Assembly: GCA_037478935.1 (NCBI GenBank)
Contig: JBBFLR010000002.1
Span: forward strand, 26,604-90,603
Direction: 5' to 3'
Source: Candidatus Methanosuratincola sp.
GTDB taxonomy: Archaea; Thermoproteota; Methanomethylicia; Methanomethylicales; Methanomethylicaceae
Length of the DNA: 64,000 nucleotides
The position numbers and the translations under genes were made by a program. A model generated the notes under the pieces. That model had not been told where the DNA came from. It was given only the letters and a program-made list of their open reading frames with translations, and searched no databases. Shown one piece after another: positions 60,433 through 64,000 of the stretch. The stretch's first letter is position 1. Each line of letters starts with the position of its first letter.

Positions 60433-61353
60433 TTAACATGATGTAATGCGTGGAGGCAGGTGCAGCACTTCCCTATCTAGGAATTCTTTTATTTTTTGTA
60501 GAATAGTTAATAGAGTAGATGGATTTACGGTTCTTGAAAGAAACCTTGTGTGATAGAGCTGGCTTATTTCCATAATCTCTCTGTATATTTCGCCATAGCT
60601 GCAAACTGGATCATAATACTCAAAAATTTTCCGCAGTAAAAACAAAATTCTTTTCTCGTCTACTTCACCATTTTTTTCGATGTCAAAGTAATATTCAGAA
60701 CCTTTCCCGACATATTGATAGTAATGGTTCGTCTTTCGAGCCAAAGTGTTAAGTCTACTCATCAACGCAGATACAGGTGATTCCCCGCGGCTCACAGTTT
60801 TAAGCTCATGTTCCTTCTCAACCAAGCCGAACTTCTTCATGAACTCTAGGACTTTCGTAAAAACTTCTGTCAGGACGGCCTTGTTTGCTTCGTTGTTTAG
60901 CCGAATGGCCGATGATGGTGATGTGCTTGCCAAAAGTATTAAGGATAAACTTGCAAGTTTTTCATCCCAGTGGAGTCTTGTTTGTTCTGTTGTGTTAAAC
61001 TTGGTATCAGATAATTCAAGAAATCTTAAAAATTGCTCCTCGAGGGTTTTGCCATATTTAATGTTGATACATTTTGCAACACCTTTAAAAGTCAAAGCAT
61101 ATTTTTCATCATCTACATTGCCGATTCGTTGTATGTCACCTTGCTCCAGAAGAACCTCAGCTACTTCGGATTCAAGCCATAACGCACTTTCTGCAAACTT
61201 TTTTGACTTATTGTTGTCTGTCATATTATATATTTCGAAAATGAGTTTTGAAGGAATGCTTTCCCGTTCAATTTTCTTTGCTTTCTCCATTACATAAACA
61301 AGTTGATCGAAGAGCTTAAGCATTTCATTTTCGAGCTTTTGACCTGACACCAT
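60433..61353 (-). CDS. Unrecognised protein, last gene of HerA-SMC-like operon
   Basis: About 306 aa from the ATG at 61353, which shares a base with the SMC-like stop (TAATG); an ATG three codons upstream at 61362 is the alternative. The first part is helical with a winged-helix-like stretch (SEVAEVLLEQGDIQRIGNVD, EKYALTFKGVAKCI). The later part has RGESPVSALMSRLNTLARKTNHYYQY and CSYGEIYREIMEIS. No catalytic motif is seen. It may be a DNA-binding adaptor or kleisin-like partner for the SMC-like ATPase, judged only from gene order and helical character. Confidence 0.55.
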   Translation of the reverse strand: MVSGQKLENEMLKLFDQLVYVMEKAKKIERESIPSKLIFEIYNMTDNNKSKKFAESALWLESEVAEVLLEQGDIQRIGNVDDEKYALTFKGVAKCINIKYGKTLEEQFLRFLELSDTKFNTTEQTRLHWDEKLASLSLILLASTSPSSAIRLNNEANKAVLTEVFTKVLEFMKKFGLVEKEHELKTVSRGESPVSALMSRLNTLARKTNHYYQYVGKGSEYYFDIEKNGEVDEKRILFLLRKIFEYYDPVCSYGEIYREIMEISQLYHTRFLSRTVNPSTLLTILQKIKEFLDREVLHLPPRITSC

Positions 61354-63380
61354 TAGCACCATCCTTTGATTTCAACACTTTTGGAGGAATTTTGGGTCGG
61401 TCTTACAATAACCGCAAGTAAAACAGAACCTTTATTGTATTCTTCGCGAAGGTTGTTTTTCAACATCTGTAAATTCTCAGGATCAAGATCAGCAATTTCA
61501 TCAACTAAAACTATTTTCTTCCTATGTGGATCCATTTTCTTAAAGACCCCGGTAAGCGTTGTGATTTTACTTTGTCCTTGTGAAAGTTTATCAATTGGAA
61601 TCTGCCTATTTTCCTTTGTTATGAAGACATTTTTTTCTATATCAAAAAACTGTATCTCATGAAGCCTACAATCAAAGGCTACAGGCTCAAACTGATTTCC
61701 CAAATATTCTCCTACATCCTTCACAAACTTTTCATAATCATTCAACCCAAAGCCAGGTCTTTTCTCCAAAGAAGCAAATTGCTCTCGTGCTTGAGATGGG
61801 TTTTGAAGAATCTGAATCCACTGAAAGATGTTCTCACGCAAACGAGATATTGTCTCATATAAATCTTTCAATTCTTTTTCTTTTCCTTCATACTTGGGTT
61901 TCCTTGCAGCATTCTCACGATGCAAATTGAGGTTTTCTTGAGTCTTTGTTATGAGGGTTTCGTCTGTTCGGATTGAAATCTCCAATTCTTGTAGTTCCTT
62001 TTGGATATCTTCTGGTGTTCCTTCCACCCCAGCGAGTTCGCCCCATTTAGAAAGAAGCTCATTTCTGTTTTCTTGCAACGCAACCTGCAAATCTATATAT
62101 CTTTTTTGAACATCAAGAAATGATTTCTGAACATCATCAAACTCTCTCAAAGCTTCGTTTTTTTGAGACAACTCATGGATTTTTTCCTGAATTTTGTCGA
62201 TTTCTGCAATCATTTTTTTTCTCTCATTCATCACATTCTTCAGAGTATTTAACAGAATAAGTACTCTATCGGAAGCTAATTTTACTTTTATTGCTCGGAG
62301 ATCCCGTAAGACTTCGTTGACTGGTTTGTCAATCAGAGGGACCATGTCATTTGCAGGATATTTTTGGAAGAAGTCAATCATATCTTCTACAATCCTCAAT
62401 TCGACGGCTTTTTTCTGTTCTTGTGGTTGGACTTTCCTGTTCAGCTCATTAAGCTCAGACCAGTCGTTTTCTAAGAGTTTTTCGCTTTGAATTGAAATTC
62501 CATAAGAGCTTAAGGAGCTGCATATCTGAATAATTCTACTATCCACTTCTTTTAGCTTTTCATTAGCTAATTTAAAGTTCCACCTCTCTTTCGTAAGCTT
62601 TGCAACAATATCTGCGCCTGTCTTGCCTTTCAATTGGTCATATCTTTTTCCAAGGGCCTTGTATTCAGCGGTTATCTCATATTCTTGGCTTAACAGTTCA
62701 AGTTTCTTTTTTATTTGCTCTTTGAGTTCCACTTTTTTTAGTTTTTCTTGTAATTCAACTTGCCGTTGTTTCGCCTTTTTTATGGTTTGCTCCAATTTTT
62801 CAATTTCTTGGGTCATTTCTTTTTCTTTTCTCTTGAAATTATAGAATTCATCGATATCCATGAGATGTTTGTTAATTTCGCTTTGCAGAGAAACCAATCC
62901 TTTTTCAAGATCATAGAAATACTTGCTCAGCTTTCCCAAGCTGGCGCTTACTACTTTCTTTGGGTCGTCTTCTGTTAGAAAAACCACCTCGAATTTTTTG
63001 TCGATTGTCTCCACTGAGATTGGTTTTGAGTTTAGAAAGTACTGTGGCTTTTGTCCTTTTGTGCGTTGCATTATTAAATCAATAGGTTCAGGTTTGTCAC
63101 AATAAACTCTGAAATAATATTCAAGAGTCTTATTCTCATCAAAATCTTGCAACTTTCTTTTTAGTATCGGTTTTCTTTCCAACTCCTTCTCTTGGTCGAG
63201 ATAACCCAAAGCTAATGCTAAGCAGTTAAGTAAGGTGGTTTTTCCCGTACCGTTTCTGCCTTCTATTTCCACAAGATTTGTTTCTGTTTTTGAGTCTGAG
63301 CCTTGTGGCGGAAAAGAAAATGGGAGATCGCCTGGTTTATGATATCCTGGTTCCAGGTAACTCATTTTGAACTCGAACAA
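61353..63380 (-). CDS. SMC/Rad50-like ATPase
   Basis: A 675-aa protein. Walker A is EGRNGTGKTTLLNCLALALG near residue 38, the ABC signature is IDKLSQGQSKITTL near residue 600, and Walker B is KKIVLVDEIADLDPEN near residue 625. Between them lie about 400 residues of coiled coil rich in Glu, Lys, Leu and Gln, with no obvious zinc hook. That is shorter than SMC or Rad50 proteins and closer to RecF/DndD-size ATPases. TTG at 63380 or ATG at 63365 (ATGA overlap with the preceding small gene) is the start. Its partners in the operon point to DNA handling or defence. Confidence 0.85.
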   Translation of the reverse strand: MFEFKMSYLEPGYHKPGDLPFSFPPQGSDSKTETNLVEIEGRNGTGKTTLLNCLALALGYLDQEKELERKPILKRKLQDFDENKTLEYYFRVYCDKPEPIDLIMQRTKGQKPQYFLNSKPISVETIDKKFEVVFLTEDDPKKVVSASLGKLSKYFYDLEKGLVSLQSEINKHLMDIDEFYNFKRKEKEMTQEIEKLEQTIKKAKQRQVELQEKLKKVELKEQIKKKLELLSQEYEITAEYKALGKRYDQLKGKTGADIVAKLTKERWNFKLANEKLKEVDSRIIQICSSLSSYGISIQSEKLLENDWSELNELNRKVQPQEQKKAVELRIVEDMIDFFQKYPANDMVPLIDKPVNEVLRDLRAIKVKLASDRVLILLNTLKNVMNERKKMIAEIDKIQEKIHELSQKNEALREFDDVQKSFLDVQKRYIDLQVALQENRNELLSKWGELAGVEGTPEDIQKELQELEISIRTDETLITKTQENLNLHRENAARKPKYEGKEKELKDLYETISRLRENIFQWIQILQNPSQAREQFASLEKRPGFGLNDYEKFVKDVGEYLGNQFEPVAFDCRLHEIQFFDIEKNVFITKENRQIPIDKLSQGQSKITTLTGVFKKMDPHRKKIVLVDEIADLDPENLQMLKNNLREEYNKGSVLLAVIVRPTQNSSKSVEIKGWC

Positions 63381-63523
63381 CTTTGTTCACCTGTTTTCTT
63401 TAGAAGAAATTGAAGTTTCTCATCAATGCTTAACTCTTCATTCCACACTGCTTCCAATATTTGCAATTCCTTTTCTGTCACCAATTTGGTCAAAAGCTCT
63501 CTGGCATATAATTTTTCTCTCAA
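63362..63523 (-). CDS. 53-aa protein between HerA-like and SMC-like genes
   Basis: TTG at 63523 overlaps the HerA stop (63520-63522), and its TGA overlaps the SMC-like ATG at 63365. The sequence starts MREKLYARELLTKLVTEKEL and continues helical to SCSSSK. No family is recognised. Perfect overlap with both neighbours argues that it is translated. Confidence 0.55.
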   Translation of the reverse strand: MREKLYARELLTKLVTEKELQILEAVWNEELSIDEKLQFLLKKTGEQSCSSSK

Positions 63524-64000
63524 CTTTTAACCCCCATTAACGGGATTGGAAACTTCACCAGTCTAACCTGGGGCACAGCGACACTCGACATAACGGCAAA
63601 CCCATTTTCAAGCGAAGATAATTCAACTGAAAATTCCTTTACTCCGAATTTTTTGCCAACATTTCCAAGAGATCTAAAGAATATCCGTGTGTTGACAATT
63701 GATGTAAGTCCAACAGGTAGATCTTCTGGATTCTGCGAAGCGAAAATTACTCCAATTCGCTCAGAGCGCCCCATCCTGGCAATGGCATTAAGTTCTTCAA
63801 GGGCTTGCACAGACGCCCCAGATCTGTAGAAGTGGTGTACTTCATCAATCACTATTAAAACAGGGATCTCCGAATACTGACCCTTGATAGCTTTTGCCTC
63901 ATAAATTTTTGATAGTAAATGTCGGAGTAGAACAGCCCCAAATATAATCGTGTCTTTGTTTGAAAGATCTATAACTGATAATCTTCCAGGGATCATTATA
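63520..64000 (-). CDS. herA: HerA-like ATPase, C-terminal part (cut by right edge)
   Basis: The last ~160 residues of a HerA/FtsK-type hexameric ATPase. GRLSVIDLSN leads to Walker B VLIVIDEVHHFY. ARMGRSERIGVIFASQNPEDLP is the sensor-like loop and VNTRIFFR carries the probable arginine finger. The Walker A half lies beyond the window; the frame stays open through 64000 and the Met at 63996 is internal. HerA proteins translocate DNA with a nuclease partner in archaeal end resection and in several defence systems. It heads the overlapping operon with the 53-aa, SMC-like and 307-aa genes. Confidence 0.85.
   Translation of the reverse strand, partial: IMIPGRLSVIDLSNKDTIIFGAVLLRHLLSKIYEAKAIKGQYSEIPVLIVIDEVHHFYRSGASVQALEELNAIARMGRSERIGVIFASQNPEDLPVGLTSIVNTRIFFRSLGNVGKKFGVKEFSVELSSLENGFAVMSSVAVPQVRLVKFPIPLMGVKS

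Follow-up and report, generated by a model that had tools for sequence, protein, structure and literature searches.

The stretch of DNA analysed here (the window, 64,000 nucleotides from the genome of the archaeon Candidatus Methanosuratincola sp.) contained most of a minus-strand operon that was completed by reading the contig past the window edge. The operon consisted of five genes in the order nurA–herA–small–SMC-like–X, encoding a NurA-like nuclease, a HerA-like translocase, a small protein of 53 amino acids (aa), an SMC/Rad50-like ATPase, and a 309-aa protein that we called X. It was nearly certain that a conserved module of these five genes existed. We considered it fairly probable that this mobile restriction module, together with a resident DNA methyltransferase, constituted a system against invading DNA that resembled restriction-modification (RM). 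An earlier note on the window had proposed a new anti-plasmid or anti-virus module; this proposal still appeared to be the best one, but the gene set on which it was based was incomplete.

The five genes and their products

The end of the window (position 64000, G000:C2:90603) cut the operon inside herA. Coordinates past 64000 were extrapolated, and a coordinate in the locus record L008 equalled the window coordinate minus 55397. The genes were the following:

Extrapolated 65098-66135 (L008:9701-10738), minus strand: NurA-like nuclease, 345 aa, 6 base pairs (bp) upstream of the herA start, past the window.
63520..64000 in the window (C-terminal part), continuing to extrapolated 65091, minus strand: HerA-like DNA-translocase ATPase, 523 aa (HerA_C, DUF87).
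63362..63523, minus strand: small protein of 53 aa, its gene placed between those for HerA and the SMC-like ATPase; an open reading frame (ORF) of the same family was present in every locus.
61353..63380, minus strand: SMC/Rad50-like coiled-coil ABC ATPase, 675 aa, TTG start (AAA_23, SMC_N).
60433..61362, minus strand: protein X, 309 aa from the first ATG, predicted winged-helix protein; homologues in all complete loci.

From herA onward, the genes overlapped by 4, 19, and 10 bp (at the herA/small, small/SMC-like, and SMC-like/X junctions, respectively). In locus L023, which came from a genome of a different family, the equivalent junctions overlapped by 4, 19, and 7 bp, while the SMC-like proteins were just 45% identical. 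The preservation of these overlaps despite such divergence argued for selected translational coupling. Moreover, the five genes were in the identical order in every locus long enough to show them. Therefore, given this order and the similar overlaps in L023, the cluster was not a chance arrangement. The four overlapping same-strand genes of the earlier note were thus real, but they belonged to a unit of five with the NurA-like gene at its head. The same note had stated that neither nurA nor mre11 was downstream of herA; mre11 was indeed absent, but nurA was located just past the window edge. The length of the last protein also had to be corrected from 307 to 309 aa.

The NurA-like protein of the window organism matched the Pfam NurA domain PF09376 weakly (0.0019, below the cut-off), and all 13 NurA family members that were scanned matched this domain, the best of them at 3.6e-12. 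The NurA profile found no sequence relative in the PDB, but fold comparison did find relatives. Namely, Foldseek with the AlphaFold2 (AF2) model of this protein, which had a mean predicted local distance difference test score (pLDDT) of 76 and a poor N-terminal part of 53 residues, placed Thermotoga TM1739 (1zup, 4.7e-9) and Sulfolobus NurA (2ygk, 2.2e-8) at the top of the PDB folds. NurA from the Thermococcus HerA–NurA complex was also matched (9x1n_G, 8.3e-6), and the next ranks were occupied by other RNase H-like nucleases (Argonautes and endonuclease V). Five acidic residues (D88, E89, E98, D175, and D227) were invariant in the family alignment, which was consistent with an active metal site; D88, E98, and D175 (numbered as in the protein of the window organism) were the putative catalytic ones.

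The second gene of the operon encoded a protein with matches to HerA_C (1.1e-12) and DUF87 (1.9e-6), a Walker A motif GQTGSGKT and a Walker B motif LIVIDEVHHF. Its best PDB match was SsoHerA (4d2i, 3.4e-12), and a full-length alignment with the housekeeping HerA encoded in this genome showed 21% identity. The SMC-like protein matched AAA_23 (8.5e-10) and SMC_N (4.1e-10) and its two ends carried the motifs of an ABC head (Walker A GRNGTGKTT, signature LSQGQ, and Walker B VLVDEIADLD). The motifs that the earlier note had named in both ATPases were thus present in the translations, and the zinc hook that it had not seen in the SMC-like protein was indeed lacking. The zinc-hook motif CxxC was absent from 12 of 13 SMC-like proteins, including the one from the window, and the sole CxxC (L026, residue 91) was in the N-terminal head region rather than at the coil apex. 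The catalytic Walker B glutamate (DE) was retained in those aligned homologues that covered the region. In a Methanoperedens contig (L029:6967-7300), the SMC-like gene stopped after a short matching ORF of 43 aa and represented a degraded or interrupted copy.

The other two proteins remained unrecognisable, as had been noted before. The small protein had no family match, and an ORF of 42-60 aa that fitted its profile was located between the herA and SMC-like genes in every locus. X had no significant match in Pfam, NCBIfam, or the defence-system profiles of PADLOC 2.0.0, and a search for it in 150 relatives gave nothing convincing. Its AF2 model was helical (pLDDT 81.6, predicted template modelling score 0.58), with helices at residues 33-45, 49-58, 65-74, and 92-103 and strands at 77-80 and 87-90. 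This corresponded to one clear helix-helix-helix-hairpin order of a winged helix and a possible second one, and X was predicted to be a winged-helix protein from this order of elements. Foldseek of the model against the PDB gave nothing significant (best E 0.34; MukE–MukF 0.46; MarR-type winged helices were among the matches), so structure prediction for the last protein, suggested in the earlier note, provided an order of elements but no fold match.

Distribution, insertion, and the resident repair genes

The five-gene order recurred, rarely, in Bacillota, Bacteroidota, Chloroflexota, and several archaeal phyla. In the phylum of the window organism, a NurA match was found in 4 of 349 genomes, three of which had the operon; the counts for three other groups were 1/301, 5/375, and 1/396 genomes, each including the genome that had led to the choice of the group. 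When the NurA alignment was used for a genome-wide scan, 12 loci were obtained, two of them already known (G255 and G005), and scans of viral contigs added one further locus (a single contig across three scans). Searches by tblastn of plasmids with the window NurA and X, and of plasmids and phages with the Neobacillus NurA, found nothing. Bacteria and archaea were intermixed in the HerA and NurA trees. In addition, the pairwise distances of the four large proteins were correlated (Mantel r 0.66-0.94, p<=0.005), as would be expected for one unit that was inherited or transferred together. The same gene order, which the earlier note had suggested looking for, was therefore present in distant bacteria and archaea, with defence genes nearby in several loci.

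In the window organism, the operon was a part of an island that was recognised by a step in G+C content and by comparison with congeners:

58210..64000, on to extrapolated 68636 (L008:2813-13239), no strand: AT-rich inserted island, 10.4 kb, 39% G+C.
58295..59206, minus strand: DNA methyltransferase, beta class N4/N6 (PF01555, 4.6e-40; PADLOC MTase_II, 1.6e-67), candidate modification enzyme.
59208..59369, minus strand: ORF of 53 aa immediately preceding the methyltransferase gene, without a Pfam match, listed by association only.

The AT-rich DNA beside a methylase that the earlier note had described was confirmed: G+C content was 38% for 58295-64000 and 55% for window positions 1-58000, and the entire island had 39% compared with 54-55% elsewhere. 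Two congeners, G005 (L053) and G004 (L054), matched both flanks of the island, and only ~0.2 kb separated the flanks in their genomes. The island was therefore a clean insertion relative to both of them. A distant version of the operon was present elsewhere in the genome of G005 (recorded as Ca. Methanosuratincola subterraneus), so the genus had acquired the operon at least twice. Besides the five genes and the PF01555 methyltransferase, the island contained type I RM fragments and an M48 peptidase. These were located upstream of nurA (L008:10907-13261, extrapolated 66304-68658), where a decayed type I RM system was represented by HsdM and HsdR fragments. Remnant ORFs with the look of a decayed gene were located between the methyltransferase and X (59795-60273, plus strand). 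A stretch of ~170 bp at the right island edge (L008:13240-13407, L053:2960-3128) was 91% identical between the congeners compared with 78-82% for the neighbouring genes; neither this stretch nor the island had an Rfam match. No convincing direct repeats at the island ends and no flanking tRNA were found, and no integrase was recognised among the island ORFs in a search that was not exhaustive.

The operon was also distinct from the housekeeping repair genes, as the earlier note had concluded. An intact set of nurA (351 aa), herA (529 aa), mre11 (455 aa), and rad50 (691 aa, with a CPTC hook) was found in this order on contig C3, with mre11 at L012:5968-7335. Close relatives of the housekeeping nurA and mre11 just beyond position 64000 would have spoken against the proposal of the earlier note, but the nurA found there was extremely divergent, and there was no mre11 between or beside the operon genes. 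No alignment between the operon NurA and the housekeeping NurA was obtained by hhalign. Similar to the archaeal housekeeping operon, nurA came first and adjoined herA, and a coiled-coil ABC ATPase was encoded in the same unit. In contrast, the operon lacked Mre11 and the zinc hook, had two extra genes (for the small protein and X), and was patchy and mobile. Thus, an identity with the housekeeping operon was rejected, and the operon was a second, diverged set in which the places of Mre11 and Rad50 were occupied by other proteins.

Two other clusters with genes for HerA-like or HerA/FtsK-like ATPases were observed in the same genome. On contig C7 (L010:12742-16538), a HerA-like ATPase of 602 aa was located beside a protein of 660 aa whose match to PF09376 was weak and split (1.3e-4). 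We rejected this pair as the housekeeping set in favour of the C3 operon, and the archaeon may therefore have three pairs of the NurA-HerA type (on C3, in the window operon, and on C7). The other cluster (L010:3666-6308, the L006 region) consisted of a gene for a RadA-like recombinase followed by genes for a protein of 103 aa and a HerA/FtsK-like ATPase of 460 aa, possibly a repair or mobile cluster.

Linked DNA methyltransferases

The surroundings of the operon showed the METHYLTRANSFERASE link, namely a D12-class adenine methyltransferase (PF02086) that recurred in the operon flanks. A DNA methyltransferase gene, the partner expected in restriction-modification, was found beside the operon in 13 of the 14 loci with usable flanks, its class differing among loci, and D12 was within ~3.2 kb in 11 of them. 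In the three loci without D12, the window had PF01555, Neobacillus had type I HsdM/S/R ~1 kb away, and Methanococcoides had none. Three loci came from a separate genome search made after the link had been noticed (L065, L066, and L067); all three possessed the five genes and an adjoining D12 gene, and in two of them D12 started 4 bp inside the end of X. Since the methyltransferase gene overlapped or nearly abutted the operon in the same transcriptional direction in L030, L031, L032, L066, and L067, it was probably co-transcribed with the operon there. As a yardstick for chance, the profile of PD-λ-5 B, to which the D12 gene corresponded in PADLOC, was found at 10 places in eight genomes (~25 Mb), or ~0.4 per Mb. 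A chance D12 neighbour within ~13 kb would be expected in ~0.5% of loci, and even this rate was overstated because the genomes had been picked for carrying the system.

The D12 genes formed two subgroups and were placed either before or after the five-gene core, and the enzyme was of the PF01555 type in the window and HsdM in L028. The variation in subgroup, class, and side of the core suggested that the link had probably been made more than once, by repeated recruitment. The earlier note had treated the methylase as mere surroundings; the linkage in 13 of 14 loci indicated instead that the methyltransferase was probably a part of the operon function. That the window methyltransferase was tied to its operon as well was suggested by the other loci.

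In several loci, the D12 gene was preceded by a ParB-like gene that corresponded to PD-λ-5 A in PADLOC (L023/L027 and L032, 6e-130 and 1e-157) or was its homologue (L037). Accordingly, A and B were both located beside the core in L027, L032, and L037, and B alone in L030 and L031. PD-λ-5 is an E. coli system that has been reported to block phages (Vassallo et al. 2022, PMC9519451), an mrr deletion strain having served as the host. At the window locus, neither the A nor the B profile had a match. Other defence neighbours included a type I RM system (L028), an MvaI/BcnI-type RM system (L033), and a dGTPase-like protein (L037:2257-4005).

Some further genes near the operon were recorded. A TPR protein whose N-terminus resembled an Mrr-type nuclease was encoded at L030:7818-10715 and added to the defence-island surroundings. 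Similar-looking helix-turn-helix proteins of 220-225 aa flanked the operon in two Halobacteriota loci (L036:15661-16338 and L065:11900-12562).

Putative function and alternative explanations

In PADLOC, no operon protein belonged to a named system: there was no match for the small protein, for X, or for the operon NurA, and the other operon proteins had only generic HerA or ATPase similarity. In tested defence systems, HerA is partnered by effectors such as SIR2 and DUF4297 (PMC11291478, PMC12977600). The operon resembled SIR2-HerA and DUF4297-HerA in coupling a HerA motor to a nuclease or effector, but it used a NurA nuclease of the RNase H fold, had three more subunits, and was linked to a methyltransferase. 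Both systems were rejected, in agreement with the earlier note, because the HerA partner matched PF09376 and no SIR2 or DUF4297 domain was present in the operon. Wadjet, which consists of JetA, JetB, a long MukB-like JetC, and the Toprim nuclease JetD and which that note had also dismissed, was rejected because there were only weak JetC matches to the coil or ATPase and no JetA, JetB, or JetD. Lamassu (LmuABC) shared with the operon a short-coil SMC/Rad50-like ATPase of ~650-700 aa with weak LmuB similarity (best 4.7e-12) and a small extra subunit. LmuB has glutamine in place of the Walker B glutamate and often a zinc hook, and this short-coil protein is the likely sensor of the system (PMC10586767). 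In contrast, the operon encoded NurA-HerA, its SMC-like protein retained the Walker B DE and lacked a hook, and no operon protein matched the LmuA effector; thus, Lamassu was rejected. Dnd/Pbe was rejected as well (weak ATPase matches to DndD, PbeC, and DndH, without the sulfurtransferase DndC, DndE, or PbeD), as was MADS, where the similarity was limited to P-loop, motor, or coil. The 'HerA–FtsK capture' and BREX-related capture systems differed from the operon, and PD-λ-5 worked in E. coli and existed without the core, whereas the operon bordered its A and/or B in some loci. We found no description of the NurA–HerA–SMC operon in the literature that was searched, and an earlier mention elsewhere, e.g., in the 2004 FtsK–HerA survey (PMC521647), is possible.

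The conservation of the five genes, the methyltransferase linkage, the PD-λ-5 and other defence neighbours, and the patchy, inserted distribution together made a defence function likely. Several observations weighed against an RM-like role. The methyltransferase of the window was ~1.2 kb from the operon, belonged to a different class, and was separated from it by remnants; the Methanococcoides locus (L036/L064) had no methyltransferase in its 20 kb; and three loci (L069, L070, and L072), on a plasmid of Kosakonia, in a phage of Pseudomonas, and on a plasmid of Mesorhizobium, carried PD-λ-5 A and B but not the core. The core could thus be either an added restriction arm for the PD-λ-5 pair or its frequent companion. 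The distance and class of the window enzyme, as well as the solitary PD-λ-5 pairs, would also fit independent systems that were gathered in islands, the core and the PD-λ-5-like or other methyltransferases being merely co-located. We regarded this as unlikely because the genes were adjacent in 13 of 14 loci and, in five of these, overlapped or abutted in one direction. Moreover, D12 could be on either side of the core, and shared descent from a single accidental linkage would hardly produce such a pattern.

The main functional rival was DNA donation, where NurA-HerA would process DNA and pump it to other cells and the methylase would protect or mark the donor DNA. Its basis was the Thermus element ICETh1, which serves this purpose with NurA and a HerA/FtsK ATPase coupled to an RM enzyme and a methylase (PMC5365140), so the methylase linkage alone did not prove defence. 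In low-G+C DNA, ICETh1 has an operon of a type IIG RM enzyme, NurA, TdtA (HerA/FtsK), and a PF01555 methylase; donation depends on TdtA and falls by orders of magnitude when the RM enzyme or the NurA-like protein is lost (PMC5365140, PMC7767461). The two arrangements shared a nurA gene immediately before that of the HerA/FtsK-family ATPase and co-transcribed modification enzymes, and the window island was likewise AT-rich and inserted. Of the published arrangements, that of ICETh1 came nearest to NurA–HerA–methylase, and it kept the DNA-transfer reading open. However, no SMC-like, small, or X gene has been reported for ICETh1, no flanking tRNA or long direct repeat was found at the island, no integrase was recognised there in the non-exhaustive search, and the PD-λ-5 components and defence genes among the neighbours favoured defence. 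We therefore held donation, or another mobile-element role, to be rather improbable. The least probable explanation was an accessory operon for double-strand-break repair, a diverged counterpart of nurA-herA-mre11-rad50, with the SMC-like protein in place of Rad50 and X or the small protein in place of Mre11. The gene order did parallel that of the C3 operon and the HerA proteins were related over their full length, but the Mre11 nuclease and the zinc hook were missing, NurA was too diverged to be aligned with its housekeeping counterpart, and the island was patchy, horizontally spread, and inserted. This explanation would also leave the methyltransferase linkage without a reason.

For the RM-like system, we put together a putative sensor–motor mechanism from the HerA–NurA structure, the HerA partners in defence, and the sensor role of the SMC-like protein in Lamassu. 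In the published complexes, a HerA hexamer and a NurA dimer form a translocase-nuclease with DNA in the central tunnel (PMC12977600). The methyltransferase would mark host DNA as self, while the SMC-like ATPase, the winged-helix protein X, and the small subunit would survey DNA for a signature of the invader, such as sites without modification, or ends that are free or replicating. Upon detection, the SMC-like complex would load or unlock the HerA hexamer-NurA dimer, which would then translocate along the duplex and degrade the invader DNA. This model implies that all five proteins may act in one complex, with methylation as the self mark, the SMC part as the sensor, and phage or plasmid DNA as the target. 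More tentatively, such a system may represent methylation-linked immunity of a new class, whose restriction arm, a NurA-HerA resection motor, would be under the control of an SMC-like complex that includes two protein families lacking any known homology. The archaeal end-resection machine would then have become an immune effector in archaea and bacteria alike.

PD-λ-5 could be a stripped-down relative of the modification half of the operon system. If our interpretation is true, the operon would also be a candidate for the restriction arm that acts with some PD-λ-5 relatives; PD-λ-5 itself has activity in E. coli, but its mechanism is unexplained. According to a 2026 study in Thermococcus, archaeal HerA–NurA is unlikely to perform end resection directly, and an antiviral action is possible (PMC12977600); for the question of repair versus antiviral NurA–HerA raised there, cultivable bacterial hosts of the operon exist (Neobacillus and Mucilaginibacter). 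In the same case, the operon would represent an unnamed defence system of archaea and bacteria that unites three themes which usually occur separately, namely DNA modification, SMC-type surveillance, and HerA-driven nuclease action.

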